From: a virus
IMG/VR virus record: IMGVR_UViG_3300020420_000572
Span: 1 to 37,210 of that record
Length of the DNA stretch: 37,210 nt
Strand: one strand, 5' to 3'
Shown here piece by piece: positions 2,661 to 23,624 of the stretch; position 1 is the first letter of the stretch; the number at the start of each line of letters is the position of its first letter. The notes under the pieces were generated by a model. The model did no database searches. It saw nothing but the letters and a program-made list of their open reading frames with translations, and was not told where the DNA came from. The position numbers were made by a program, and so were the translations under genes.

Positions 2661-3776
2661 ATGCCAAGAAGAAAAAGTTCACCAGAAGTAGATGCTTTAA
2701 GCACTAGGCAATTATCGCCAAATAAGTGTAAAGCGTCTATCTTACACGCACTGAAGATTAAAAGACCTATCTTTGTATGGGGAGGCCCTGGAATAGGTAA
2801 ATCGGAAGTGATCCACCAAATTGCAAAGAATATCGATGCACACGTGATTGATATTAGATTAAGTTTATGGGAGCCTACAGATATTAAAGGTATTCCATAT
2901 TTCAACTCAAAAGAAAATAATATGGTTTGGGCACAACCTTCGGAATTGCCAACAAAAGCAGAAGCGAAGAAGCACAAAAATATTGTTTTGTTTTTAGATG
3001 AAATGAACTCCGCGGCACCTAGTGTGCAGGCGGCGGCTTATCAACTTATATTAAACAGAAAAGTTGGTCAATATGAATTGCCAGATAACGTATTAATTTG
3101 TGCGGCTGGTAATAGAGAAGCAGACAAAGGTGTTGTATATAGAATGCCTGCTCCGTTGGCTAACAGATTTATCCACTTAGAAATGAAGCCAGAATTTGAT
3201 GACTGGTTTGAGTGGGCAGTTGAACACAACATTCACAAAGATGTTGTTGGTTATTTGACTTTTAGCAAAAAGGACTTATATGACTTTGATCCAAAGTCTC
3301 CAAGTAGGTCATTTGCTACTCCGAGATCTTGGTCATTTGTAAGTGAATTGCTTTCAGATGATTTAGATGAGAACACCGTTACTGATTTAGTCAGTGGTGC
3401 AGTGGGCGAAGGACTTGCAGTTAAGTTCATGGCTCATAGAAAGGTAGCATCAGAACTACCTAATCCTTCCGAGATATTGGAAGGCAAAATAACAGAAATG
3501 AAATCGAAAGAAATATCAGCAATGTACTCCCTTACGGTTTCGCTATGTTATGAACTAAAAGAAGCAAACGATAAAAAAGATAAGAAATTTAATGACAAGG
3601 TCAGCAAGTTTCTTAGATTTATGATGGATAATTTTGATACAGAACTTGTTGTTATGGGTATCAAGATGGCATTAACTCAGTATCAATTACCTATTGATCC
3701 TGATGCAGTCAAATGCTTCGATGAGTTCCACGAAAAATACGGCAAGTATATTACTGCCGCACAGAGTACTAACTAA
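2661..3776 (+). CDS. MoxR-like AAA+ ATPase
   Basis: The 371-residue protein is an AAA+ ATPase of the MoxR type. Walker A is GGPGIGKS (41-48), Walker B ends in LDE with D113 and E114, the sensor-1 Asn is N151 in AAGNREAD, and an arginine-finger-like PLANRF has R169. MoxR ATPases act as chaperones that remodel or activate partner proteins, usually a VWA-domain protein encoded next door. The following gene encodes exactly such a partner. A sigma70-like promoter and a strong AGGAG ribosome-binding site precede it. In marine T4-like phages this pair recurs, but its substrate is not known. Confidence 0.92.
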   Translation: MPRRKSSPEVDALSTRQLSPNKCKASILHALKIKRPIFVWGGPGIGKSEVIHQIAKNIDAHVIDIRLSLWEPTDIKGIPYFNSKENNMVWAQPSELPTKAEAKKHKNIVLFLDEMNSAAPSVQAAAYQLILNRKVGQYELPDNVLICAAGNREADKGVVYRMPAPLANRFIHLEMKPEFDDWFEWAVEHNIHKDVVGYLTFSKKDLYDFDPKSPSRSFATPRSWSFVSELLSDDLDENTVTDLVSGAVGEGLAVKFMAHRKVASELPNPSEILEGKITEMKSKEISAMYSLTVSLCYELKEANDKKDKKFNDKVSKFLRFMMDNFDTELVVMGIKMALTQYQLPIDPDAVKCFDEFHEKYGKYITAAQSTN

Positions 3777-3808: not shown

Positions 3809-3827
3809 ACTAATAGGAATTATGAAC

Positions 3828-5093
3828 ATGACAACAGATATTATAGAACAAACAGAACAACCAGTAGAACTTACTCCTGCACAATTAGAAAGTATGAGAG
3901 CAGAAGTATTAGATAAAATTATTGTAGCCAGAGTTGGATTGCTTTTAAGACATCCTTTCTTTGGCAATATGGCAACTAGACTAATCATTAAAGAATGTGA
4001 TGACTGGTGTCCAACTGCCGCAACTGATGGAAGACATTTATACTACAACACTGAATTCTTCAACAAGATGAATACTAAAGAAATTGAATTCGTTATTGCA
4101 CATGAAATTCTTCATTGTGTATTTGATCATATGAAAAGAAGAGAAGACAGAGAACCACAATTACATAACATCGCTTGTGATTATATTGTGAACAATACTT
4201 TAATGGATCAGAACATTGGAGAGAAACCTAAAGACATACAGATATTCCAAGACTACAAATACAGTGGTTGGTCTTCAGAAGCAGTATATGATGACATATA
4301 CAAAAAAGGTAAAAAGGCTATGGAGAAATTAGGTAAACTTTTAGATGAGCACATTGATTGGGAGAAAGAACAAGGTGCTGGTGCAGGTAAAGGCAAGGAC
4401 AAAGATAAAAAAGGTGGCTCGCAACCTACATACACTAAAGCGGAGATGGATAAGATTAAAGATGAAATAAAAGAAAGCATGATACAATCTGCTCAAGCGG
4501 CAGGTAAAGAAAACTTACCTGAGGCAATTAAAAGAATTATTAATCAGTTCACTGAACCTAAAATGAACTGGAGAGAATTACTTCAGCAACAGATTGATAG
4601 TGTGCTTAAAAATGATTACAGTTGGGCAAGACCTAGCAGGAAAGGTTGGCATTCAGGTGTTATATTACCAGGTACATTGAATGAACAAACAATAGACCTT
4701 TGTATAGCAATAGACACTTCAGGTTCTATTAGGGAAGAACAAACAAGAGACTTCCTAGGTGAGGTGCAAGGTATTATGGATCAATACAGAGATTTCAAAA
4801 TTAAAATATGGTGTTTTGATACTGAGATACACAATGAACAAGATATTACTCCGCACGAAGGTGATTTACAAAGTTATGAAATACAAGGTGGCGGTGGTAC
4901 TGACTTCGATGCTAATTTTGAATACATGAAAGAGAATGACATACAACCTAAGAAATTTATAATGTTCACAGATGGTTATCCTTGGGAGAGTTGGGGAGAC
5001 GATTCATACTGTGATACTTTGTTCTTAATTAATGACCATCATGATAAAAATATGGAAGCACCTTTTGGTACAACGGTGCACTATGATGGATAA
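3828..5093 (+). CDS. HExxH metallopeptidase-like/VWA-domain protein, partner of the MoxR ATPase
   Basis: The product joins an N-terminal metallopeptidase-like domain with HEILH at residues 92-96 (DUF2201-type HExxH zinc motif), a linker rich in Gly, Lys and Asp (about 172-190), and a C-terminal VWA-like domain with a MIDAS motif DTSGS (286-290). Such proteins are partners of MoxR ATPases; whether this one cleaves protein is not shown. I prefer the ATG at 3828 (421 aa) to the in-frame ATG at 3822, because the AGGA at 3815-3818 lies 9 bases from the former and only 3 from the latter. A hairpin precedes it. The stop overlaps the next gene's ATG (TAATG). Confidence 0.9.
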   Translation: MTTDIIEQTEQPVELTPAQLESMRAEVLDKIIVARVGLLLRHPFFGNMATRLIIKECDDWCPTAATDGRHLYYNTEFFNKMNTKEIEFVIAHEILHCVFDHMKRREDREPQLHNIACDYIVNNTLMDQNIGEKPKDIQIFQDYKYSGWSSEAVYDDIYKKGKKAMEKLGKLLDEHIDWEKEQGAGAGKGKDKDKKGGSQPTYTKAEMDKIKDEIKESMIQSAQAAGKENLPEAIKRIINQFTEPKMNWRELLQQQIDSVLKNDYSWARPSRKGWHSGVILPGTLNEQTIDLCIAIDTSGSIREEQTRDFLGEVQGIMDQYRDFKIKIWCFDTEIHNEQDITPHEGDLQSYEIQGGGGTDFDANFEYMKENDIQPKKFIMFTDGYPWESWGDDSYCDTLFLINDHHDKNMEAPFGTTVHYDG

Positions 5094-6674: not shown

Positions 6675-7790
6675 ATGGCATTACAGATTAGAAGAGGTAC
6701 AGACGCACAAAGACAAGGTATCACACCTTTAGCAGGTGAACTTATCTTCACTACAGACACCAAAAAACTATTTGTTGGAGACGGTTCAACAGTAGGTGGT
6801 AATCAAGTAGACACAACATTATCAGCACAATATTTGAGTGTACCATCAAACATCACGCCAGATGCTACAAACACAAGAGATTTAGGAACAACCACTGCCG
6901 CTTGGAGAACAGGTTACTTCAACGGTATTGTTGCAACAGGTGAAATAGAAGCGGCTTCATTCACAGGTAATATTACATCAAACAATTCAACAGTAGTTGT
7001 AAATGCAAACGCAGGAACAGTGACAGCAAACTTAACTGGTGCTGTCGTTGGTAACGTTACAGGTAACACAGCAGGAACACATACAGGTCCAGTAACTGGA
7101 GATGTTAAAGGTTCATTATTTGGTAGCGATTCATCATTAAGAGTTGATGGTGATTCAGACTACATGACAAACGGTGTTATTGCACTTGACGGAAACGTTG
7201 TACAATTACAATCAGGTTCACAAGTAATATTCGGTACTACAAGTTCAGCGAACGGTGTAGGTCTTAGAATTAACTCAACTGACCATGCAAACAACATGGC
7301 AATACAAATTTATTCAGATGATTCAAACGCGACAACACACAACTCATTAGAAGCATACACATCAAAAGGTTCAATAGTAACACCAACAGCAGTTGCGGCA
7401 GATGATATTATGTTTTCTTATTCACACTACGGATATGATGGTTCACAATACAAATTATCAAGTGTGATCAGTGCAAGTGTTGATCCAGATGCAACAGTGT
7501 CAAGTGGTGCTGTACCAGGACAATTAATTATTGCAACTACTCCAGACAATGGTAGCACATTAAAATTTGTTGTACTAGACAAAGACGGTAATTTCGGAAT
7601 TAATGTAACTAATCCAACTAAAAAATTAGAAGTAAACGGTAATGGTCAATTTGCTTCTGAAGTATTGTTAGGCAGAATGGATCAGACAGCCATAAATGCT
7701 CTAACAGCCGCAAACGGAATGATTGTGTACAACACAACGACAAACAAATTCCAAGGCTACGAAAACGGTGCTTGGAGCAACTTAATCTAA
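6675..7790 (+). CDS. Tail fibre protein with GELIFTTDTKKLFVGDG N-terminus
   Basis: The 371-residue product begins with MALQIRRGTDAQR and continues to GELIFTTDTKKLFVGDG, the N-terminal pattern of many tail fibre and receptor-tropism proteins of marine phages. The middle has Gly/Thr/Asn-rich repeats such as GNVTGNTAGTHTGPVTGDVKG (about 125-145) that look like a trimeric beta-helical shaft. The C-terminal part carries LEVNGNGQF and ends in GYENGAWSNLI, a common fibre ending. It probably forms a virion fibre contacting the host. It is on the plus strand whereas the other tail-fibre genes lie on the minus strand about 23 kb away. It is preceded by a late promoter-like motif and GGAG. Confidence 0.88.
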   Translation: MALQIRRGTDAQRQGITPLAGELIFTTDTKKLFVGDGSTVGGNQVDTTLSAQYLSVPSNITPDATNTRDLGTTTAAWRTGYFNGIVATGEIEAASFTGNITSNNSTVVVNANAGTVTANLTGAVVGNVTGNTAGTHTGPVTGDVKGSLFGSDSSLRVDGDSDYMTNGVIALDGNVVQLQSGSQVIFGTTSSANGVGLRINSTDHANNMAIQIYSDDSNATTHNSLEAYTSKGSIVTPTAVAADDIMFSYSHYGYDGSQYKLSSVISASVDPDATVSSGAVPGQLIIATTPDNGSTLKFVVLDKDGNFGINVTNPTKKLEVNGNGQFASEVLLGRMDQTAINALTAANGMIVYNTTTNKFQGYENGAWSNLI

Positions 7791-7799
7791 TAACTCACA

Positions 7800-8363
7800 A
7801 TGAACATCCGAATAACGGGACACGCCAGGGGACTTGGCAGGAGCCTTTACGAATATTTTAAATCTTTAGGACACAATGTAGAAGGTTACAGCCTTTCAAC
7901 AGGGTATGACATCAATACCGTTGAAGGTAGAGAACAAATATTAGATGGTTTGGACAACGTCGACGTATTTGTTAACAATGCATGGTCAGAATATTCAGGA
8001 CAAACAAAACTATTAGAAGAAGTGATACAGGCATGGGACGGCAACAAAGATAAAAAGATATTGAACATAAGTTCTAAAGCCTGTTACAATTACAAAGATA
8101 TAAATGCAGATATGGAAAGATATGGTCAGAACAAAAGAGAACAGAACAAAATGATAGAAGACCGTATACAAAAATATGGTCCACACATATTAAATGTAAT
8201 TTTAGGTATGACAGATACACGCCTAGGAGAAGACTTCGAAGGAGAGAAAATGGATCCCGATGCAGTTTCTAAATGGATCGCTGATATGTTATTGTGTGAA
8301 ACTATGTATTTCCAAAGTGTTACAGTTGATGCTTCTAAATTAGATTATAGATTTAAACAATAG
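7800..8363 (+). CDS. Short-chain dehydrogenase/reductase-like protein (187 aa)
   Basis: The product has a Rossmann nucleotide-binding start, TGHARGLG at residues 6-13, an NNAWS motif at 59-63 in place of the SDR NNAG, an ISSKA strand with the expected Ser, and YGQNK with Tyr108 and Lys112 matching the catalytic YxxxK. At 187 residues it is shorter than typical SDRs (about 250), so the C-terminal substrate region is reduced. It probably oxidises, reduces or epimerises a sugar-like substrate using NAD(P). It is a paralogue of the protein at 12477-13031. It ends in an 11-base convergent overlap with the next gene. Confidence 0.85.
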   Translation: MNIRITGHARGLGRSLYEYFKSLGHNVEGYSLSTGYDINTVEGREQILDGLDNVDVFVNNAWSEYSGQTKLLEEVIQAWDGNKDKKILNISSKACYNYKDINADMERYGQNKREQNKMIEDRIQKYGPHILNVILGMTDTRLGEDFEGEKMDPDAVSKWIADMLLCETMYFQSVTVDASKLDYRFKQ

Positions 8364-9495
8364 AACTTTGTTTTACTTTTGATTCTTCCCAACTCTTCCA
8401 AGTCCATTCAGTAACTTCATAATCCATATCCTCAGGTTTGAAAAGATACTTAGGTGGCACTGTGTCGTGCAAAGGTTGTCCTTTGTTGACGTGACCATCT
8501 CGTAGCATTATTTGGTGTAAGAAATTTGTTACAGGTTTGCCAGGCACAAAGTCGCACCATGGACCACACTGCAACTGTTCCATGTCTATTGTTTTAGGAT
8601 CACTCCATTGTATAATTCTGTGTGGTATTCCATTTATGTTTACCATGTAATGATATAGATTATCATCCGCAGGTTTCTTTTCCCAGGTCCAACCTTTTTT
8701 ATCGCAAATACTTTTAATTAATTTCACGTGATCACTTAAAAAGAACTGTGGCTCATCTGGTGATCTTCCTATATCCGAACCTGCTCTAATTCTATATTGC
8801 CATGCACGATTGCCTAAACTTTGTATTTCTTCCAATACTTCTTCCATATGATCTATATGTTCTAAAGTGTATCCAACATAATAAACAAAAATACCTTCGG
8901 CGTTACAATTTTCAATAGCCTGTAATTGTTTCTTATGCACTTTCTCTCCTTGATAAGAATGGTGATTCATTCCAATCATTACCATAGTTGTACCTGCTTC
9001 CGCTATCTGTTTTGTCCATTTCCTATCTGCCAACTTTACACCATTCGTTAGGATACAAACATCTTCAGGTCTTTTCAATTCTTTTAATAGAACTTTTGTT
9101 CTGCTTATAAGTTCTGGTAGGTCTTTTCTTACAGTTGGTTCTGCACCTGCTAGTATCACAGCACCAGCACTGGCATCAAATCTATTTTCTATCTGCCATA
9201 GTATTTGTTCTATAGGCTTGTCTATTGTTTTGTTGTCTGGACCATGATAACAATGTGGACAATTTAAATTACATTTGTCAGTGACTTCTATCATTACACC
9301 TTGCGGTATGCTGTATCCCGACTTGTCATATTCTAATTGATTATAAAAATTAATATCAGTTTCCAAAAGATGTGTTGATTCGCCATGCTCTACACAGGTC
9401 TTTTTTAGATAAACACCATCTGGCATAGTCACCCTTTCAGCGACGCAATGCCTATAACATATGTGGCACAAACTGGTTGTTTTTGTATCTTCCAT
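8353..9495 (-). CDS. Radical SAM enzyme, MJ0619/tetraether-synthase-like
   Basis: The 380-residue protein has a radical SAM motif CNLNCPHC (C75, C79, C82) that would hold a [4Fe-4S] cluster, followed by GAEPTVRKDLPELI as the SAM-binding GGEP-like region. An N-terminal Cys-rich domain has LCHICYRHC (C10, C13, C17) and CVEHGE (C34, H37). That arrangement is typical of the MJ0619-type radical SAM group, which includes methylases and archaeal lipid-joining enzymes acting on unreactive carbons. Here the substrate is unknown. It is the last gene of a three-gene minus-strand cassette, 4 bases after the kinase-like gene, with no clear Shine-Dalgarno. Confidence 0.88.
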   Translation of the reverse strand: MEDTKTTSLCHICYRHCVAERVTMPDGVYLKKTCVEHGESTHLLETDINFYNQLEYDKSGYSIPQGVMIEVTDKCNLNCPHCYHGPDNKTIDKPIEQILWQIENRFDASAGAVILAGAEPTVRKDLPELISRTKVLLKELKRPEDVCILTNGVKLADRKWTKQIAEAGTTMVMIGMNHHSYQGEKVHKKQLQAIENCNAEGIFVYYVGYTLEHIDHMEEVLEEIQSLGNRAWQYRIRAGSDIGRSPDEPQFFLSDHVKLIKSICDKKGWTWEKKPADDNLYHYMVNINGIPHRIIQWSDPKTIDMEQLQCGPWCDFVPGKPVTNFLHQIMLRDGHVNKGQPLHDTVPPKYLFKPEDMDYEVTEWTWKSWEESKVKQSSIV

Positions 9496-9499
9496 ACTA

Positions 9500-10192
9500 T
9501 TACTTATAAATTGAAATCGCCTTATCTATAAATGAATCTGGATACACATTTCTAAAACTTTCTAAACATAGTATTTGAAGTTTATCGAATGGATATGTCT
9601 TATCTGCTTCAATGCCTAATTTTTCCATCTGTGGCATTAGTTCACTTTGACGTTCAATTGATATGTGGCTTAAATGATCTTTTACTGTGATTTGTGGTTC
9701 TGTGTTATGATATGCGAAAAAATAATTTATATTTTTAAGTTTCTGATCAACCACCCAATAACTGCTAGGGTGTAAACTGTATTTGTATATTCCAAGTTTT
9801 TTATGTTTTTCAAATATGTATAACATCTGTTCTTGCCAATCGGGCAACACATCTTCATAAGTCTTTCCATGACTCTCTTCCCAAAAATCCACGCCTTGTA
9901 TTTTAAAATAGATTGCTTGGTGGTCTGGATCTATTCTTGTTATTTCAGGAATGAGATCTTTATGATCAACATCAAGTGATAAAAGAAAATCCTTTTCCCT
10001 TGCATATTTAGACTCCATTAAAGATTGGTCTACAACCTGCTCGTGTCCTTTGTGATATTCTGAGTCGTGTTTGAACCACATACAAAATTCACTTTTAGAA
10101 TGATTTATCAGGCTAGTATAAATTAAATTGTTTCTACACAATCCTTTTCCCGGTACGTTGTTCCAGTAATATTTAAAATCTGTGAATGTCAT
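9500..10192 (-). CDS. Kinase-like protein (tentative), paralogue of 13574-14194
   Basis: The 230-residue product resembles the gene at 13574-14194: both have an aromatic-rich N-terminus, a helix with Glu (YAREKDFLLSL here), the motif IPEITRID (81-88; IPEILLMD in the other), a WQ-containing helix and a late HPSSYWVV segment (141-148) where the other has YPHTFFFDD. This order recalls a protein-kinase-like or aminoglycoside-kinase fold, with HPSSYW standing where a catalytic HxD...N loop would be. The classical catalytic Asp is absent, so activity is doubtful. It overlaps the upstream GNAT-like gene by 20 bases. Confidence 0.8.
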   Translation of the reverse strand: MTFTDFKYYWNNVPGKGLCRNNLIYTSLINHSKSEFCMWFKHDSEYHKGHEQVVDQSLMESKYAREKDFLLSLDVDHKDLIPEITRIDPDHQAIYFKIQGVDFWEESHGKTYEDVLPDWQEQMLYIFEKHKKLGIYKYSLHPSSYWVVDQKLKNINYFFAYHNTEPQITVKDHLSHISIERQSELMPQMEKLGIEADKTYPFDKLQILCLESFRNVYPDSFIDKAISIYK

Positions 10193-10763
10193 TTATAATT
10201 TGGGGCCATTGTTTTACATCATATAATTGTTTAAAATATACATCTGCATTGACACGCCATACAGTTTGACGTGTGCCTCTGTAATCTAGTTCTTTAATTT
10301 TTGTATAGACACCTGTGCTTTCAAGTGTAGGTGCCACAATAGAATGCACTAGCCTTTGTGTGCCTTCCGCATTTTCATTTGTAGTCACATAATAGTTTTT
10401 TCCAAACCCTGCCCAACAAATTCCAGCCACTTGGAAAAATTGTTGCGTGGTAGTTTGGTGTGTTTTAATTGTTTCACGTGTTCTCACCATTTGATATTCT
10501 TTAGGCAATTCATCTGTGAACGTACATATCCTACAAGCGATCCTATAACTGTCTGGACCCATTTCTGGAAAACTGTGAGCCGCAGTTGATCCTATAATTT
10601 TACCTTTGTATGATAACAACCAAACCATATATCTATCTTCATTGGACAGTGAATCCACCAACATTTTTTTGGTACTGTTGTTGACAAACCCTTTTTGTTC
10701 TGCTGTTTTGTAGAATTCGGTCAAATCCAAATTGTCTGAGTAACGTATTAACTGAAATGCCAT
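10173..10763 (-). CDS. GNAT-like acyltransferase (tentative)
   Basis: The 196-residue product contains a strand pair YMVWLLSYKGKIIGSTAAH (45-63), the usual beta2-beta3 hairpin and Gly-Ser/Ala step of GNAT acetyltransferases, preceded by helices containing LTEFYKTAEQKGF. The C-terminal half is less typical and contains Trp- and Tyr-rich strands. I did not find a clear acetyl-CoA-binding Q/RxxGxG/A loop, so this is a fold-level guess. It is the first gene of a minus-strand cassette that starts in a 39-base divergent gap shared with the plus-strand oxygenase gene. Confidence 0.78.
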   Translation of the reverse strand: MAFQLIRYSDNLDLTEFYKTAEQKGFVNNSTKKMLVDSLSNEDRYMVWLLSYKGKIIGSTAAHSFPEMGPDSYRIACRICTFTDELPKEYQMVRTRETIKTHQTTTQQFFQVAGICWAGFGKNYYVTTNENAEGTQRLVHSIVAPTLESTGVYTKIKELDYRGTRQTVWRVNADVYFKQLYDVKQWPQIINDIHRF

Positions 10764-10802
10764 AATATTTTCTTTGTGTTGTATTTAAAAGTAAATAGTT
10801 GT

Positions 10803-11609
10803 ATGATCAGAGGAATTGGCGGTCAACCGTACATAGCACTAGACGAACACATAGATATAGAAGGTTTTAGGAATTTACATCCAGAAATTTGTAGAGGCTT
10901 TGCTTTGGCAAGAGAATATGCCAAAGAAGGAACTTGGATGTCACCTGGATTCGATACAAAAGATATGAGTTACCAATTAAATTGGAAACCAATTTATATG
11001 GCTTTGGAAGAATACAAAGCACTACCAGAAAGTGATCCAATACGAAAAAACGGTGACGACTTGTACGCAAATATAAAAGATTACAAAACACGCAATCAAT
11101 TCACAAGATATCTTAAGTCTGTGTTGGGTGCAAAGGATCCTTACATTTATTATTTCCTTTGGGAAGAAGGAGATTGGGATCAAAGGAATACTGAAAGAAA
11201 TTTAACAGAAGAAGCAAAATATTTTCCAGGATTAGTTGCTTGGATTAAAGAATTAGTAAACACGGGCATCATAGAAAGCATAGGCAGAGTAATATTCTTC
11301 CATTGCGAACACGACGGGAAACCTTTTGAACATAGAGACCTTGATGGAAAGCACGGAGACAATCAAGGATACAGTGGTCACAAGAATGAATTCATACACA
11401 TAAGACACAACACAAAAAGAGGATTCTACATATGGGATCCTGAAAAACAAAACAAAGTATACATTAATTCTAATGCTTCGTTCTGGAATGATCAAGACTG
11501 GCACGGTGGAGAAGTTAATGCAGAACAAGAATACGGATTACGAATTGATTGTGTATTCACAGACAAGTTCCGTAAACAACTTGGCATAGAAAATATTTCG
11601 GAATACTAA
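10803..11609 (+). CDS. 2-oxoglutarate/Fe(II)-dependent oxygenase-like protein
   Basis: The open frame can be extended back to a GTG at 10776, but the ATG at 10803 gives MIRGIGGQPY and a 268-residue product and is preferred. A GTAAATA motif lies 5 bases before it and no clear Shine-Dalgarno is present, so expression may be unusual. The Fe(II) site is visible as H177-R-D179 with a distal H234 in DWHGGE, and R247 (YGLRIDC) would bind 2-oxoglutarate. The protein therefore looks like a double-stranded beta-helix oxygenase, perhaps a hydroxylase. The substrate is unknown. Confidence 0.85.
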   Translation: MIRGIGGQPYIALDEHIDIEGFRNLHPEICRGFALAREYAKEGTWMSPGFDTKDMSYQLNWKPIYMALEEYKALPESDPIRKNGDDLYANIKDYKTRNQFTRYLKSVLGAKDPYIYYFLWEEGDWDQRNTERNLTEEAKYFPGLVAWIKELVNTGIIESIGRVIFFHCEHDGKPFEHRDLDGKHGDNQGYSGHKNEFIHIRHNTKRGFYIWDPEKQNKVYINSNASFWNDQDWHGGEVNAEQEYGLRIDCVFTDKFRKQLGIENISEY

Positions 11610-14920: not shown

Positions 14921-15742
14921 ATGTCTAACAATGTTATAAAAAACGTATATCAAAATAGTCTGTATCAAAAGATTCTCCATGAGATAAACGGAGTTATATT
15001 TCCTTTATCTGATCAATGGAAAAGAATTGGTATTAGTGTAAGTGGTGGTTTAGACAGTGCATTGATGTCTGTTTTATTATGCAGTATAATCACACAAAAT
15101 TTATGGCTTACAAAGGTACACATCATAACAAATATTAGATGTTGGAAAACTAGACCTTGGCAAAAACAAAATAGTTTAGATGTTTACAATTGGTTGGTCA
15201 AATCATTTCCAAATATAGAATTTAAAAGACACGAAAATTTTATTGCTCCAGATTTAGAATGGGGTTCAAAAGGTCCAAACATCGTTGACGAATACGGAAA
15301 ATTAAAAAGCGGAAATCAAATAGAATTAAGGTCCCACGCAGAATACGTGGCACACACAGAAAAATTAGATGCTTGGTATTGTGGTGTAACACAAAACCCG
15401 GACAAAGAATTTGATGAACGTCTAGCAGACAGAGATGTCTTTATAGACTCTTTAGGTGATAAGACACTTGATAGACTCATCAAACCACACATGGGCGGCT
15501 ATGCTTGTCACCCATTCACATACGTAAAGAAAGATTGGATAGTTGCTCAATACAAAAAATTAGGCATAATGGACCTATTTGATCTTACTAGAAGTTGTGA
15601 AGGTGACGCTAACATATACCCTGATGTCTTTGGAGACTTAGACTATAAGACGTATGTGCCAGGGTCGCCCGTGCCAACGTGTGGTAAATGTTTTTGGTGT
15701 AAAGAACGAGAATGGGGAGTAGCGAACAGTGACAAAGAGTAA
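14921..15742 (+). CDS. QueC-like PP-loop ATPase
   Basis: The 273-residue protein has an SGGLDS PP-loop (41-46) for ATP pyrophosphate binding and a C-terminal zinc signature: C226 in TRSCEGD plus C254, C257 and C260 in CGKCFWC. This is the pattern of QueC, the 7-cyano-7-deazaguanine synthase, where the last three Cys also have a CxxCxxC spacing. No QueD, QueE or DNA deazaguanine transferase was seen in this window, so the substrate may differ. It is the first gene of a plus-strand cassette after a late promoter-like motif and overlaps the next gene by 14 bases. Confidence 0.85.
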   Translation: MSNNVIKNVYQNSLYQKILHEINGVIFPLSDQWKRIGISVSGGLDSALMSVLLCSIITQNLWLTKVHIITNIRCWKTRPWQKQNSLDVYNWLVKSFPNIEFKRHENFIAPDLEWGSKGPNIVDEYGKLKSGNQIELRSHAEYVAHTEKLDAWYCGVTQNPDKEFDERLADRDVFIDSLGDKTLDRLIKPHMGGYACHPFTYVKKDWIVAQYKKLGIMDLFDLTRSCEGDANIYPDVFGDLDYKTYVPGSPVPTCGKCFWCKEREWGVANSDKE

Positions 15743-16994
15743 AACTTTTTGTATGCATCCATTTACTGGATTAGCAACTAGAGAGGACGGAGCAATTAAA
15801 GTGTGTTGCCGTAGTCTTCCTATTGGCAATATTAAAGATATGAGTTTAGAAGAAGCATGGAACTCAGATGCAATGAAAGAAGTTAGAAGACAGGTACTAA
15901 ATGGTGAGAGACCTGATGTGTGTCAACCTTGCTTTGACCTAGAAGACCAAGGCGTACAAAGTTTAAGACAAAGACACATCACAGACTCTTCGCCAGAATC
16001 TAGGATTAATTTGTATCCGAATGCTTTAGACAGTTTAAGTGCTGATTACAGTATGCCATTTGAATTGCCCACAATGGAGATTAAGATTAATAATCTTTGT
16101 AATTTAAAGTGTAGAATGTGTAATCCTTTAGACAGTACACAATGGAAAGATTGGAAAAGCATTGTATCACACTATGAAAAAGAAGGAAACTATCTTGTAG
16201 ACGCAGTGAAAAATTTAGGATTGGAGAAAGCACCATACGTAGGATTGTTCGAAGACAAATTACATTTCTGGGAAAACTTGGAAAAACTATTGCCTTATTT
16301 CAAACGTGTAGAATTTGCAGGTGGTGAACCATTAATGGATCCTTCGCACTATAAAATATTAGACTTATTATCCAAGAATGGAAAAAATATTGAAATAAAA
16401 TATGCAACCAACGGTACAACCTTAGGTATAAAGGGTGGCAGAACAGTGCATGAGTATTGGCCCAAGTTTAAAAGTGTTGCAGTAAACGTTAGTATAGATG
16501 GTTTGCATGACACATACGAATACATTAGAGGTAACGGAAAATTTGCAGACGTTGAACACAATATAAAAGAAATGAAAAAAATACCCTCAGTAAGTCGTAT
16601 TGTAGGTGCGTTCACAGTTCAAGCAAATAATATTTTACAGATAGACAAAGTCATTGATTACTTTTTAAAAGATATGGAGATTGTGTTTTACAGTCATAGA
16701 GTAAATTATCCTCGGGCATTGTCGGCGCAAGTTCTCCCGGAAAAGTTAAAACAAGCAGTGGTTGTAAAATTAGAAGCAATGAAAGATAAAGTAAAAGACT
16801 ATCCTATAATACAAAAACATCCTGTACTGGAAAAAATTACTTTAAGACAAATACAAGACAATATTAATTTTTTACAGGCAAAAGACCTACACCAATATTG
16901 GGACGACTGCGTAGACTTTAATAGGAAATTAGATGAAACAAGAAACCAAGGACCTTTTGAAAAGATAAATCCGGAGTTTGCAAATTATGTTTAG
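15729..16994 (+). CDS. Radical SAM enzyme with N-terminal twitch domain
   Basis: The 421-residue protein starts at a GTG inside the previous gene. The N-terminal domain has FCMHPF (C8), CC at 26-27, GNIKDMSLEEAW and CQPC (C65, C68), the pattern of the phage-associated twitch-domain radical SAM family, which likely holds an auxiliary Fe-S cluster. The main cluster motif is CNLKCRMC (C124, C128, C131), followed by FAGGEPLM. Enzymes of this class often act on peptides or sugars. It is a paralogue of 19529-20947. The stop overlaps the next ATG by 8 bases. Confidence 0.9.
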   Translation: MTKSKTFCMHPFTGLATREDGAIKVCCRSLPIGNIKDMSLEEAWNSDAMKEVRRQVLNGERPDVCQPCFDLEDQGVQSLRQRHITDSSPESRINLYPNALDSLSADYSMPFELPTMEIKINNLCNLKCRMCNPLDSTQWKDWKSIVSHYEKEGNYLVDAVKNLGLEKAPYVGLFEDKLHFWENLEKLLPYFKRVEFAGGEPLMDPSHYKILDLLSKNGKNIEIKYATNGTTLGIKGGRTVHEYWPKFKSVAVNVSIDGLHDTYEYIRGNGKFADVEHNIKEMKKIPSVSRIVGAFTVQANNILQIDKVIDYFLKDMEIVFYSHRVNYPRALSAQVLPEKLKQAVVVKLEAMKDKVKDYPIIQKHPVLEKITLRQIQDNINFLQAKDLHQYWDDCVDFNRKLDETRNQGPFEKINPEFANYV

Positions 16995-18907: not shown

Positions 18908-19584
18908 GTTTTTTCGGCGACAGTTTTGTAACACATCCTAGAAAGAATAATTGGATGGGTAAACTTGCGGACAAGTATGATGCTAAAATTGTAAACGTTG
19001 GAGTGAGTGGTTCTAGTTATTGGAATACTATGATACATTTCAAACAAAACTTCCATAAGTTTATAAATCTAGATTACATTGTGTTTGCTTGGACCGATCC
19101 TTTTAGAATATATCATCGCACTGGAGATATCACTCCGCCTAGTGCTTATGCTCATAGAAGTAAAAAACACAAAGCGGCAAGGCAATACTACGAACATTTA
19201 ATAGAATGGGACAAAGAAAGACTGAACTTTCAAACAGCGGCTTATTGGTTAGACAATGAATATCTTTCTAAATGCAAAGGAAAAATTATACACCTATGGA
19301 GTTTCGGAGATACTAAAGTTGAACCGTGGTCTGAAGCACAATTAAAAGATATTAATTTCTTATATAGATGGCGCAATGGCACAGAAGTACGTAAACCTTT
19401 ATACTATATTAGTTGTAGAACTGACCCTATTAGCGGTTGGTGTGAAAATAATCTACCTTGGTTACAAAATATTTTTAAATTTAGATTGAACCATATGGGT
19501 AGTGATGGCAGTAAAGAAGTGTTAAAACTTATAGAAGATGTGACAACTCCGGAAACACTTGCTTGGCGTCAACCTTCCTTATAG
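18871..19584 (+). CDS. SGNH/GDSL-like hydrolase
   Basis: I use the ATG at 18871 because AAAGG at 18861-18865 lies just before it; the longer frame starts at a TTG at 18850. The 237-residue product has the block I motif GDSF (16-19) with the nucleophilic Ser18, GVSGSSY (44-50) giving the block II Gly, and a possible catalytic His in LNHMGSDGS near the end. SGNH enzymes remove O-acyl groups from sugars or lipids, which fits a glycan-editing block. The block III Asn is not clear. Its last 56 bases overlap the convergent radical SAM gene. Confidence 0.82.
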   Translation: MYSGRSSAKRTIGFFGDSFVTHPRKNNWMGKLADKYDAKIVNVGVSGSSYWNTMIHFKQNFHKFINLDYIVFAWTDPFRIYHRTGDITPPSAYAHRSKKHKAARQYYEHLIEWDKERLNFQTAAYWLDNEYLSKCKGKIIHLWSFGDTKVEPWSEAQLKDINFLYRWRNGTEVRKPLYYISCRTDPISGWCENNLPWLQNIFKFRLNHMGSDGSKEVLKLIEDVTTPETLAWRQPSL

Positions 19585-20947
19585 CATCCAATTTAGTTAC
19601 ATATTCCTTAAATCCTGGCAACAAGTATGAATTGTCTTGTGCGTTCATATGCTTAACCACTGCGTCCCATCTCTTCCATCCGTAAGGATTATGTTTCCAA
19701 TAATCATCGTCCTGTCTATAATTGTCCCATAGCCAACCTTTGAATTCTTTGAAACGTTCTTCTACTTCTTGCTTATCCTCTTTAGGTAAAATTTGTATAC
19801 TTAGGAAAGTAGGAATGTACAACAAGTGCATATTAACTAGACCACCACCCATTTGTATGTCACCTGGCACAGTGCCTAGATTAAGTTTTTTAAATTTGCT
19901 TTGTACTTTCCATTTCATGAATTCTGGTAAGTGTTTTACATTGAATATTTGTATTGCTGTTGCTAAACTTGTTTGTATGTTATCTGGAGTTTCGTCCAAC
20001 ATACGCAAGTTCTTTTCAACTGTGTCCCAATTTGTTGGAAATCTAATATACTCATCACGTTTCTCTATTGCATCCATGCTAATTGCAAATTTAACTTTTT
20101 TAAATTTTTTCCACAATTCTATTAGGTCTTCGTCAACTAAAATACCATTAGAGTTGTAACGAAGTAAAATTTTGTCTTGATATCCTTGTCTTATAATTTC
20201 TTCAATAAATTTTTTGTGCTCTTTAATCATAAGCGGTTCGCCGCCTGCAAAATAAACTTGTTTTAGATTGGGTATTTGCTTGTACATTTCTTCCCAAAAC
20301 TCTGGTTTCTCATACCAGAAGTTATTGAATTCTTTTTTGCCCCATTGCAATTGATCCTTTACGTGCTTGTTTTCTAATTGTGGCATCAGTGTCTGCCAAT
20401 CTTTTACCCATTTGCTACTGTCATGTGGAGAACACATTACACATTTAATATTGCAAGTGTGTCCTAAACGTAAATCTAAGTAAACTAATTCTTCAGGCAC
20501 AGTACCATCTTCTTTTGTTTGTCTTATTAATTCATGAATATCAACGCCATCTTTGTGCCATGTTCCAGTTTCCCAAATACGTTTACTTACTACGCCTACT
20601 TTTTCTTCTTGGAAACATTTATTACAACTAGCAGGTATTTGTCCTTTAAGCATAGTCGTTCTAACACTTTTCATATATTCATTATTCCAAGCACTCATAG
20701 GAGTATCTTTTCCAAAGTTGGCAGGTGTGCCATCTTCTTTCTTAATAATACCTACTTCATGATCTGAGCCTGCTCCACTGGCATTTGCTGAACAGCATAG
20801 TCGCATATCTCCATTAGGTCTTGTTGCAAAGTGTATCCAAGGCAGAATACAAAAAGTATTACTGTTAGATACTTTGGCTAACTCTCTCTGCCATTTACCT
20901 AGTTGTGAGTCTTCTGGATTTAACCAGTATTCATTGCTGTCCGTCAT
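19529..20947 (-). CDS. Radical SAM enzyme with N-terminal twitch domain (472 aa)
   Basis: The ATG at 20947 (MTDSNEYW) overlaps the upstream gene by 17 bases and is preferred over one at 20980. The N-terminal domain has FCILPWIHFATRPNG (C33), CC at 51-52, and CNKC (C108, C111) near VGVVSKR, matching the twitch-domain family of 15729-16994. The radical SAM motif is CNIKCVMC (C165, C169, C172), followed by FAGGEPLMIKEH. It is the last gene of the long minus-strand cassette and overlaps the plus-strand SGNH gene tail-to-tail by 56 bases. Confidence 0.9.
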   Translation of the reverse strand: MTDSNEYWLNPEDSQLGKWQRELAKVSNSNTFCILPWIHFATRPNGDMRLCCSANASGAGSDHEVGIIKKEDGTPANFGKDTPMSAWNNEYMKSVRTTMLKGQIPASCNKCFQEEKVGVVSKRIWETGTWHKDGVDIHELIRQTKEDGTVPEELVYLDLRLGHTCNIKCVMCSPHDSSKWVKDWQTLMPQLENKHVKDQLQWGKKEFNNFWYEKPEFWEEMYKQIPNLKQVYFAGGEPLMIKEHKKFIEEIIRQGYQDKILLRYNSNGILVDEDLIELWKKFKKVKFAISMDAIEKRDEYIRFPTNWDTVEKNLRMLDETPDNIQTSLATAIQIFNVKHLPEFMKWKVQSKFKKLNLGTVPGDIQMGGGLVNMHLLYIPTFLSIQILPKEDKQEVEERFKEFKGWLWDNYRQDDDYWKHNPYGWKRWDAVVKHMNAQDNSYLLPGFKEYVTKLDAIRKVDAKQVFPELSHLL

Positions 20948-22322
20948 CTGTGTCCGTTTCTTTTTTCCATTCTTTACCAAATCTCCAAAGAGGTGCCCTT
21001 AAATCTTCAATGTCGCATTCTGTAAATTTACTTATCGGTCCTGAGTGTATAGGATATTCAACAAATCCGTCCCATGCGTGTACAGACACAATTAAGTTTA
21101 TTTTGTCATATTTTTCGTTTAGATATTTTATTAATTGATTTTCTTTGTAAACTCTATGCTTGGTTCCTATAAAAGGAGCAGTTGGCTCGTATGCAAAAAT
21201 ATTACTTACATGGAAAATTGTGTTGGGATCATTTTTTAATTTTAAATGAAAATCATTAAGTAAATCACATTCTACAAATTTAAATTTAACCTCGTCTTTG
21301 TATCTGTTGAAGTTTTTGACTTTGCTCATGTAATCTGCTATATCCATCTTGCTGTCTATCCAGTCATTTGTTTTGTGCTTGTTTACACTCTTAAGGAATT
21401 TATGATAATCTCCTCCTTCGAAATTTTCTATTGTTTGTTGCATATAATAAAGTGCAGTAGGATTGTAATCATAAAAAATAACTTCCGTATTTTTTTCATC
21501 TTGTATTCCATATTTGTCCAAGTAACTTACCCAATTAAATCCACTTGCCGGCATTATCAACTGACTAATTGGACCTTTCATAGGAACATCAAGCACCTCT
21601 TCTGTATTGATAGGATAAAACAGTCTACTTGCACTTAAATTGTATTTGTGGTATATGTGTTTGCTATTCTCCATAAAGTCCGTTTCGTGTGGTGCATAAT
21701 AACATCTTTTTGAATGTCTAATGTCTTCATCGAACACAATGATATTTTCACCATTGTCTAAAGCAGTTCTAACAAGATTCCAACCATGCCATTTGTGTGT
21801 GTATTTCTTAGGAGTATCTCCTGGCTTGACCCATAGAGGTGTGTAGTCGTCGTGAAAGTTTTCATCACTACGTATAGGTTCATTATCCATATGTTCTGCA
21901 TCAGGCTCTGCCTCGCCCACATCTGGACACTCTAATTCTTTATATTTGTTTAAGTTAACAACATAACATTGTTCATGAAGTTCGTAGTATCCTTCTTTTC
22001 TATCCAACACGTGACCTGCAATAAAAAAGTCTTTCTTAATCAATTCATGCAGATGTTCAAAAAATTTACCACCTTCGAATTCAGTGTCTGGTGTATATAC
22101 CACTGCGTAATCATACTTGTCGACTGCTTGTTGTAAACTTACAGTTTCACTTATAGCAATCCAAACATTGTAACCATTACTGGTAATATTTGTAATACCG
22201 TATTCTGCTATATTCATTATTGTTTCTTTTGTAGCATTATTTTTTATTAAATGAAAATTTGTACTACAGATAAAAATAATATTTTTGTGCTTTAAATTAG
22301 GTGCTTCAAATTCGAATGCCAT
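20931..22322 (-). CDS. Uncharacterised two-part protein (463 aa)
   Basis: I do not recognise a named family. The N-terminal part has NIIFICSTNFHL, DYAVVYTPDTEFEGG and FFIAGHVLDRKEGYYELHEQ (about 99-118), which together look like a nucleotide-binding alpha/beta fold, possibly glycosyltransferase-like, but I see no clean DxD. The C-terminal part has EVIFYDYNPTALYY followed by FVECDLLND, recalling a Rossmann methyltransferase-like strand order. Both are resemblances only. It overlaps the 2OG oxygenase-like gene upstream by 17 bases and the radical SAM gene downstream by 17. Confidence 0.82.
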   Translation of the reverse strand: MAFEFEAPNLKHKNIIFICSTNFHLIKNNATKETIMNIAEYGITNITSNGYNVWIAISETVSLQQAVDKYDYAVVYTPDTEFEGGKFFEHLHELIKKDFFIAGHVLDRKEGYYELHEQCYVVNLNKYKELECPDVGEAEPDAEHMDNEPIRSDENFHDDYTPLWVKPGDTPKKYTHKWHGWNLVRTALDNGENIIVFDEDIRHSKRCYYAPHETDFMENSKHIYHKYNLSASRLFYPINTEEVLDVPMKGPISQLIMPASGFNWVSYLDKYGIQDEKNTEVIFYDYNPTALYYMQQTIENFEGGDYHKFLKSVNKHKTNDWIDSKMDIADYMSKVKNFNRYKDEVKFKFVECDLLNDFHLKLKNDPNTIFHVSNIFAYEPTAPFIGTKHRVYKENQLIKYLNEKYDKINLIVSVHAWDGFVEYPIHSGPISKFTECDIEDLRAPLWRFGKEWKKETDTDDGQQ

Positions 22323-23013
22323 TTTTCTTCAAACTCCTGTCTAATAGTTCATTAAATTCTTTACGTTTGTTTCCAATGTGTGCCTGTGCTATCATATGAA
22401 TCCTGTCAACATTAGAATTGTTTTCTACTCTATGTTGTTTTAGAATATTAATTAGATACACTTTACCATTGCGCCAAGGAACAAGTCCATGGTCTTTTAA
22501 CTCCATATAACATAATGCTGGATTTACTATCGCAACATTAATTGGAATCAAGTAATCACAAAGATCATTGGGCAATTCATGTCCTGGATGATCGTCATGC
22601 CATTCAATTTTTCCGTGTGATTCTAATTTCATAAATCTTATTCTGCTATATCTTTCAGCGGGAAATTGTTTCCAAAACTTTGTAGCCAGTGGTGCATTTT
22701 CAGTCAATGCTGTCCAATCATAAGGAGCATTTAATTCATCTTTGTATCCGTATTGTCCTGCTACCTCAGTCAAGTCCATTCCCAAACCATGTAAACAACA
22801 ACTGCTCCAACCTTTGTTGCCGTACTCGTCACTTCTGTGTGGCACATAGTAAGGATCTACTGAATTTAATTCTTCTTTATTAATAAAATTTTTAAAGTCA
22901 ATGTCTAATTCTAACCAAGGCAAAGTTCCGTCTTTAAATTTATTAAAGACTTTTGTGGCTGTATCCAACCCTATGTTATGATATTCTTCTATGTCTTTGT
23001 TGCTCATTATCAT
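22306..23013 (-). CDS. Asp/Asn beta-hydroxylase-like oxygenase (235 aa)
   Basis: The 235-residue protein carries IEWHDDHPGHE with H139 and D141, then a distal His (H194) in LKQHRVENNS, and R204 in NVDRIHMI that would bind 2-oxoglutarate. This is the order in aspartyl/asparaginyl beta-hydroxylase-type oxygenases. The start ATG overlaps the AOX stop by one base; a second ATG two codons later is also possible. It lies next to the alternative oxidase, another O2- and iron-using enzyme. The substrate is unknown. Confidence 0.88.
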   Translation of the reverse strand: MIMSNKDIEEYHNIGLDTATKVFNKFKDGTLPWLELDIDFKNFINKEELNSVDPYYVPHRSDEYGNKGWSSCCLHGLGMDLTEVAGQYGYKDELNAPYDWTALTENAPLATKFWKQFPAERYSRIRFMKLESHGKIEWHDDHPGHELPNDLCDYLIPINVAIVNPALCYMELKDHGLVPWRNGKVYLINILKQHRVENNSNVDRIHMIAQAHIGNKRKEFNELLDRSLKKNGIRI

Positions 23014-23624
23014 TATATTAATCCTGCCCTTTTTCTTCTAATTTGATCTGCCATGTCATGATTTACGTCTCTATGTCCTTCTTCATCTTTACGAACTGCA
23101 ATAACAACATCACGAAGTTTTGCGTCTTTATCTAAATTATAATAATCGATTGCAATTTTAGGTGCTTTTATATTTTCCGCTCTACCCTCATCTATTTCTT
23201 TTAGATATTCAGTATAACTTATGCAGGCTTGTTCCTCAAAATATGCAACCATTCTATGAGCACACTGCGGAAAAAATATGTACAAGAACATATAAAAATG
23301 CCAGAAAATAAATTGTGCTGTAATAATCGCCCAACGTTCTATCCAATTAGGCTTTGCTATTCTCATAAAAATCATCAAATGCATACGTTCATTTTCCGCT
23401 TCTGCTAACAGAGTTTTAATCCAACCTCTGTCGTCTGGTTTCATTTTTCTTAAACTACGTAAATGATTCCACATACCTGCAACCATGCCTGGCACACCTG
23501 CGATAGTTTCTAATACAACCGCCCTGTGTCCATATCTCTTTTTAAAAAAACTATCTGCTATCCAACGCAAAAACATTGTAATTCTATAAGCAACTCTATC
23601 TGAAAAATTTACTGGTGCTTTCAT
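23013..23624 (-). CDS. aox: Alternative oxidase (ubiquinol:O2 oxidoreductase)
   Basis: The 203-residue protein has the six diiron ligands of alternative oxidase in the right order and spacing: E39 (LET), E79 and H82 (ExxH in NERMH), E130 (FEEQA) and E181/H184 (DEEGH). The matching ligands in trypanosome AOX are E123, E162, H165, E213, E266, H269. RAVVLETIAGVPGMVAGM and LRSLR are AOX-type, not PTOX-type. A hydrophobic helix (about 99-118) would associate with the inner membrane. AOX passes ubiquinol electrons to O2 without pumping protons. It overlaps the methyltransferase gene by 4 bases. Confidence 0.93.
   Translation of the reverse strand: MKAPVNFSDRVAYRITMFLRWIADSFFKKRYGHRAVVLETIAGVPGMVAGMWNHLRSLRKMKPDDRGWIKTLLAEAENERMHLMIFMRIAKPNWIERWAIITAQFIFWHFYMFLYIFFPQCAHRMVAYFEEQACISYTEYLKEIDEGRAENIKAPKIAIDYYNLDKDAKLRDVVIAVRKDEEGHRDVNHDMADQIRRKRAGLI

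Follow-up and report, generated by a model that had tools for sequence, protein, structure and literature searches.

What reaction would be catalyzed by a radical SAM protein that is encoded by a virus and resembles the enzymes that join archaeal lipids? The question is raised by the open reading frame at 8353–9495 of the window, the complete 37,210-nucleotide stretch of IMG/VR record IMGVR_UViG_3300020420_000572 that was analyzed here. In an earlier note, made from the sequence alone, the protein was placed in the group of MJ0619 and tetraether synthase (Tes; here GDGT-MAS, PDB 7TOL and 7TOM), and lipid or cofactor (pterin) chemistry in the infected cell was proposed. The source was said to be a phage, which agrees with the tail-collar, Mtd_N, and phage-type ATPase genes carried by this virus record.

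Domain Organization and Model Scores

The features of the gene are given below. Conservation counts refer to an alignment of 54 of the 58 distinct viral proteins (L039, L046, L053, and L056 were omitted).

8353–9495, minus strand: radical SAM protein of 380 residues, ATG start; HMPTM/rubredoxin-like ribbon, radical SAM core, and a C-terminal domain that appears reduced
9364–9483, minus strand: N-terminal ribbon, residues 5–44 (PF23545), ligands C10, C13, C34, and H37 (CX2CX20CX2H)
9250–9273, minus strand: radical SAM cluster motif, residues 75–82, C75-NLN-C79-PH-C82 (CX3CX2C; PF04055), 54/54
9133–9147, minus strand: G117-A118-E119-P-T, a GGE-type SAM-binding motif with Ala replacing the second Gly (A118 in 54/54)
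8464–8667, minus strand: C-terminal segment, residues 277–344, by alignment conservation the counterpart of the GDGT-MAS C-auxiliary domain without its conserved Cys set

The Zn_ribbon_HMPTM model (PF23545) gave 41 bits over residues 5–44 and the Radical_SAM model (PF04055) 61.5 bits over residues 69–223, against curated cut-offs of 27 and 29.5, respectively. Matches to both above these cut-offs define the HMPTM-ribbon radical SAM superfamily, to which the protein thus belongs. An ordinary SPASM enzyme, the alternative weighed in the earlier note, was rejected: no such best match was obtained, and no SPASM domain (PF13186) appeared in the Pfam scan up to an E value of 0.1.

The best NCBIfam model was TrsS (NF045646; 99.1 bits, cut-off 490), followed by Tes/GDGT-MAS (NF045702; 76.2 bits, cut-off 450), and for both the best-matching stretch was the radical SAM core. 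The prokaryotic viperin model (NF038283) gave 32.2 bits, below its cut-off of 180. The top sequence match in the PDB was GDGT-MAS 7tol, with an E value of 4.8e-19 for the single sequence and 4.2e-33 for the 54-row profile (profile positions 1–201). GDGT-MAS was thus the nearest solved relative in sequence, and the Tes and TrsS models both scored far under cut-off.

Metal Sites

C10, C13, C34, C75, C79, and C82 are each present in 54 of the 54 distinct viral relatives. C10, C13, and C34, with CNLNCPHC at residues 75–82, had been described correctly at the outset; the fourth ribbon ligand, H37, had been overlooked and occurs in 53 of the 54, the sole exception having Cys. Because the ligands are kept in 54 relatives and H37 is exchanged once for Cys, as metal ligands allow, the motif is more than a chance arrangement. 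The exceptional protein (L085:192-1265) would have a metal site of four cysteines. The viral spacing C10X2C13X20C34X2H37 is identical to that of the rubredoxin-type motif of GDGT-MAS, C9X2C12X20C33X2H36, as given in the text available for PMC9433317.

In the same text, the N-auxiliary cluster of GDGT-MAS is liganded by C73, C77, C80, and a His, and the C-auxiliary cluster has a labile Met439 (PMC9433317). There is no Cys in residues 35–74 of the window protein, which is therefore predicted to be without the N-auxiliary cluster, and no invariant or near-invariant Cys in this region of the 54-row alignment. No conserved Cys set for a C-auxiliary cluster was found across the 54 relatives. The D....D.....C signature of the cellular members survives in the viral proteins as D299, D304, and C310 of a mixed alignment, but the PFCxYN segment that follows is lost. 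The remaining cysteines of the window protein were counted as C314 (51/54), C197 (45/54), C310 (38/54), C264 (33/54), C147 (21/54), and C17 (16/54). By this comparison both auxiliary [4Fe-4S] clusters of GDGT-MAS appear to be missing from the viral family, and since no other counted Cys is invariant, the protein is predicted to have a single [4Fe-4S] cluster and a single mononuclear site. The family would be a natural version without auxiliary clusters, in which the role of the rubredoxin-like site is separable from theirs. The name of a Tes lipid or pterin enzyme was rejected, since two of the clusters that define Tes are lacking and the protein scores far under the cut-off of its model. The older claim of pterin methylation could not be corroborated by the authors of the GDGT-MAS study, according to the available text (PMC9433317).

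The invariant residues of the C-terminal part are D277, N279, Y281, H282, M284, R293, Q296, W297, D299, N324, H327, Q328, R332, D333, N337, and D344.

Predicted Fold and SAM-Binding Residues

The structure was predicted with AF2. The model obtained with the 54-row alignment (pLDDT 90.1, pTM 0.89) was used for the fold searches; an 11-row alignment had given a pLDDT of 63.6. In Foldseek, 7tol and 7tom ranked first with E values of 1.1e-19 and 1.3e-18, respectively (TM by query 0.66–0.67), and the next match had an E value of 2.0e-8. GDGT-MAS 7tom was aligned by VIA-align with a Z of 29.2 over 330 residues (rmsd 3.8, 24% identity), and the next family, MoaA, with a Z of 17.0. Viperins, SkfB, and SuiB were lower-ranked fold matches. 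In a structural search of BFVD, TM by query length was at most 0.46 among the matches listed. The affinity to MJ0619/Tes is therefore upheld by the best PDB sequence match, the closest predicted fold, and the spacing of the metal motif. Since the superposition on GDGT-MAS covers model residues 2–339, the region at the C terminus seems to be a reduced version of the corresponding GDGT-MAS domain and not an unrelated one.

Gln268, Ser271, Thr273, and Arg275 are among the residues of GDGT-MAS that hold 5'-dAH or join its hydrogen-bond network, as described in the available portion of PMC9433317. These residues fall in a QPVSFTGR stretch when the construct numbering is taken as native plus 20, an offset that was deduced. 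The viral counterpart is RAGSDIGR (residues 237–244), in which R237 and R244 are present in 54/54 and S240 in 49/54 relatives; S240 and R244 correspond to the SAM contacts S271 and R275. The two proteins thus share an SxxGR SAM-binding stretch along with the ribbon, the CX3CX2C motif, and the fold. They differ in the auxiliary clusters, in the GAE of the viral family versus the GGE of GDGT-MAS, in length (380 versus about 500 residues), and in their viral and archaeal origins.

Distribution and Phylogeny

Relatives were sought in IMG/VR with the single protein (22 relatives in 20 loci), the 11-row alignment (110 relatives, of which the best 80 were retained, giving 57 distinct proteins), and the 54-row alignment (203 relatives, best 80 retained). 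The window protein had no match in the 50,697 phage records searched for isolate phages, and two diverged family members gave matches to the radical SAM core only. Partial matches were present in 17 of 72,556 plasmid records, none spanning 80% of the query. A scan of genome contigs (patterns KGWTWEK and NFLHQIM) gave no full-length cellular relative and two weak loci; these patterns are family-specific, and cellular proteins of more distant kinship could escape them. One of these loci, L108/L190, contains a MoaA-type ORF and was rejected as a relative, and the other, L109, has 19% identity over residues 57–217.

The ribbon model PF23545 was matched in 22 of 299 genomes of a phylum sample centered on a Clostridia genome and in 33 of 285 of a sample centered on an Omnitrophota genome. 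From the matching genomes, 32 cellular ORFs were taken from 30 loci, 15 per sample. Many have a CPxDCGLC-type motif at the position of the GDGT-MAS N-auxiliary cluster. A second type passes straight to the radical SAM motif and was seen among the 32 ORFs only in the Omnitrophota-centered sample. The cellular sequences that come closest to the viral profile (166 and 158 bits) form a tandem pair in L371 of that sample. Like the viral proteins, this pair is without the N-auxiliary cluster and has a RIRAxxx(I/M)GR motif; unlike them, it still has C-terminal Cys motifs. Its surroundings encode a SPASM protein, an NAD epimerase, a TylF-type methyltransferase, a B12 radical SAM protein, and AMP-binding and PMT_2 proteins. 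In a second genome of this sample, several ribbon proteins were recognized by eye among radical SAM and aminotransferase-like ORFs. In the bacterial genomes L466 and L467, radical SAM genes of the ribbon type stand in tandem arrays, next to B12-type radical SAM and sugar-type genes.

A ribbon and radical SAM core are shared as well with TrsS, a radical SAM selenoprotein, and with TrsS-like proteins of haloarchaeal and mycobacterial plasmids, which were aligned to the viral family by hhalign with a probability of 99.8 (columns 5–263). The viral protein differs from the former in its low score on the TrsS model (99 of 490 bits) and from the latter in that the plasmid proteins retain Cys motifs near the C terminus and are partnered by a methyltransferase.

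A tree was built from 59 rows: 23 of the 54 viral proteins, the 32 cellular ORFs, and 4 plasmid proteins (from 4 of the 17 plasmid records with a match). The 23 viral rows lie on one side of a branch with support of 100/100 and a length of 1.77, and therefore form a monophyletic, virus-only branch in this tree. Upon midpoint rooting, this branch faces the L371 pair, which lies outside it, and the other cellular rows. The tetraether-synthase superfamily now extends to phages.

Marine phages were already known to carry radical SAM genes. In the texts available, a T4-like marine phage genome of 183 kb (TARA_ERS488813_N000010) carries 12 radical SAM genes (PMC5332604), host-recognition clusters of pelagimyophages contain glycosyltransferases and radical SAM cassettes (PMC7029224), and the prevalence of radical SAM genes is reported for Tasman Sea phages (PMC7150976). 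The present virus resembles the first two in its many radical SAM genes and in the host-recognition region. It differs in the ribbon-type family, none being named for them in the available parts of PMC5332604 and PMC7029224, and no earlier description of a phage enzyme of the ribbon type (Tes/TrsS-like) was found in open PMC text.

Gene Neighborhood

The genes on either side of the radical SAM gene are as follows.

6675–7790, plus strand: Mtd_N tail-fiber-like protein (major tropism determinant N-terminal domain; PF18454, 48.4 bits)
7800–8363, plus strand: SDR/epimerase-like protein, convergent, overlapping the end of the radical SAM ORF by 11 nt (PF00106, E 5.4e-4, below cut-off)
9500–10192, minus strand: A4, kinase-like protein, 230 residues (profile matches TTK kinases at positions 60–165, E 2.5e-4)
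10173–10763, minus strand: A3, GNAT/FeeM-like protein, 196 residues (a weak assignment from profile matches)
10776–11609, plus strand: A2, divergently transcribed, 277 residues, with an invariant H-x-D ... H-G ... R motif recognized by eye among the aligned members

No Pfam family was matched above noise by A4. For A3, FeeM was matched in 4 of 19 members (best E 0.0096) and Acetyltransf_1 in 2 of 19. A2 is possibly an Fe(II)/2-oxoglutarate oxygenase, because of its H-x-D...H...R motif; no fold was assigned to it, and the best probability of its profile against other oxygenase-like neighbors was 21.3.

Recurrence was counted in 58 loci, which comprise the 57 IMG/VR loci with distinct proteins and the window. 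The families that recur closest to the enzyme gene are A4, present in 53 loci, A2 in 51, A3 in 45, and the Mtd_N-protein family in 40. A desaturase-like family (cluster 30, identified by eye) is present in 15, and no lipid-synthesis gene was recognized among the recurrent genes. Co-occurrence counts vary with flank length, hence the use of full-flank subsets. When loci were seeded with A3, the enzyme was present in 66 of 80 (36 of 42 with full flanks); when they were seeded with A4, it was present in 39 of 80 (13 of 34 with full flanks). In 19 virus records without the enzyme near the triad, the ribbon was absent throughout (0/19), and the 54-row enzyme profile gave partial matches only, in 17 of the 19. 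From the seeded counts, A2-A3-A4 is the wider unit, to which the enzyme is frequently added, and the module may be a neighborhood rather than a pathway.

Proposed Function

The phage enzyme probably carries out chemistry other than the joining of archaeal lipids. The best explanation, given a probability of about 0.4, is radical abstraction of hydrogen from a polar small substrate, whose product decorates the host surface or the virion. The SAM cluster would generate a 5'-deoxyadenosyl radical, which would remove one hydrogen atom from an unreactive C-H bond in a small sugar or amino-acid-like substrate that is polar and probably anionic, and the outcome would be oxidation, epimerization, or deoxygenation. 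The metal of the ribbon would feed electrons if it is iron and would be structural if it is zinc. The module proteins A4 (kinase-like), A3 (GNAT/FeeM-like), and A2 (a possible oxygenase) would then convert the product to a decoration of the infected-cell surface or virion, encoded in the same region as receptor-binding proteins.

Polarity of the substrate is suggested by the invariant polar residues, because they lie in the part that matches the pocket-bordering C-terminal domain of GDGT-MAS; not all of the conserved polarity would reflect substrate binding, since some invariant Arg and Ser residues occupy SAM-binding positions. The surrounding genes favor a role in modifying the surface or the virion over one in lipid synthesis. 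Decoration is favored by the Mtd_N-type neighbors, by the epimerase, TylF-type methyltransferase, PMT_2, and AMP-binding genes around the L371 pair, and by the glycosyltransferases and radical SAM cassettes in the host-recognition clusters of pelagimyophages (PMC7029224, as far as its text is available). Against a pathway formed by the module stand the triads that often occur without the enzyme and the weak assignments of A2–A4. If surface modification is correct, novel radical chemistry would take part in phage–host recognition by viruses with many radical SAM genes.

A fuller version of the decoration proposal, which is rather unlikely as stated, is that uncultured phages keep an ancient branch of their own within the tetraether-synthase superfamily, with one [4Fe-4S] cluster and a rubredoxin-like site, as the radical step of a viral tailoring pathway for a new surface or virion modification. 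If so, a virus-specific pathway would have been built on this superfamily.

The first alternative to decoration by a small product, with a modest chance of being correct, is that the enzyme modifies a protein or peptide, such as the neighboring receptor-binding protein or a host surface protein, after the manner of peptide-maturing radical SAM enzymes. In its favor, a receptor-binding family of the Mtd_N type recurs close by in 40 of 58 loci, the kinase-like and GNAT-like neighbors could also act on proteins, and SkfB and SuiB are among the lower-ranked fold matches; however, the enzyme is without a SPASM/twitch domain and without conserved auxiliary-cluster cysteines.

Action on lipid chains in the infected cell, Tes- or Grs-like, as first proposed, is quite improbable even though GDGT-MAS is the best solved relative in both sequence and fold. 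Coupling of the GDGT-MAS type through a cluster-bound intermediate is unlikely because the C-auxiliary cluster is missing. Lipid substrates would be compatible with loss of the auxiliary clusters, since GrsA and GrsB are thought to handle lipids with a SAM cluster and no auxiliary clusters (PMC11186832, available text), and the desaturase-like family in 15 of 58 loci would suit such a role. Against it are the absence of both GDGT-MAS auxiliary clusters, a Tes score of 76 of 450 bits, the polar conservation of the C-terminal part, and a recurrent module in which no lipid-synthesis gene was recognized. With the low TrsS score and the gene context, these findings leave the lipid or pterin chemistry of the earlier note unsupported. 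Least probable is that the enzyme supplies the infected cell with a nucleotide or cofactor, by viperin-like or deazaguanine-like chemistry or in a redox role similar to that of TrsS. Although TrsS is the top NCBIfam model, viperins are among the fold matches, and a PP-loop-like ORF lies at 14921–15742 (by eye; TilS E 0.031), the scores are far under the TrsS and viperin cut-offs, the viperin matches are confined to the radical SAM core, and the recurrent viral neighbors do not include the methyltransferase encoded after the TrsS-like gene of four plasmids.

Sequence Variation and Other Genes of the Virus

For the enzyme gene, dN was 0.036 and dS 0.50 versus L028, and 0.12–0.14 and 1.26–2.25, respectively, versus L037, L036, and L031. 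By a simple count over six comparisons, rough since dS is mostly above 1, dN/dS is about 0.04–0.11, and by these ratios the gene is under purifying selection. The DNA of the window is about 96–97% identical to that of L028 over 0.1–19.6 kb, with a drop to 83–88% over about 8860–9610, which includes the N-terminal half of the enzyme gene and the end of A4. The pattern resembles that of an allele exchanged locally by recombination. In the same comparison, a lesser drop lies near 16600–16850, within another radical SAM gene.

Seven radical SAM genes are present in the 37 kb record of the window, between 8353 and 26337. Two of them, 15729–16994 and 19529–20980, encode strong twitch-domain radical SAM proteins (NF033640, 333 and 403 bits, respectively, cut-off 170); their SPASM scores (PF13186) are 40.3 bits and 20.4 bits, the latter slightly under the cut-off of 21.5. 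Among 20 records that carry the enzyme gene, there are 1–16 radical SAM matches apiece, with the most in the 82.5 kb record of L071 (16) and the 269.7 kb record of L075 (14). In the 148 kb record with a single match, the rest of the island may be cut off, because the record ends about 4.5 kb away from the gene.

The nearest relatives of the AAA/MoxR-like ATPase (2661–3776) and the DUF2201 protein (3822–5093) are from PA5oct-type Pseudomonas phages of about 285 kb, with 49.9% and 44.5% identity, respectively, so the lineage may be that of a jumbo myovirus. The window also encodes an alternative oxidase at 23013–23624 on the minus strand (PF01786, 268 bits), for which the only relative among the 50,697 phage records is in Phage C48C1 (OQ984149), with 53.7% identity.
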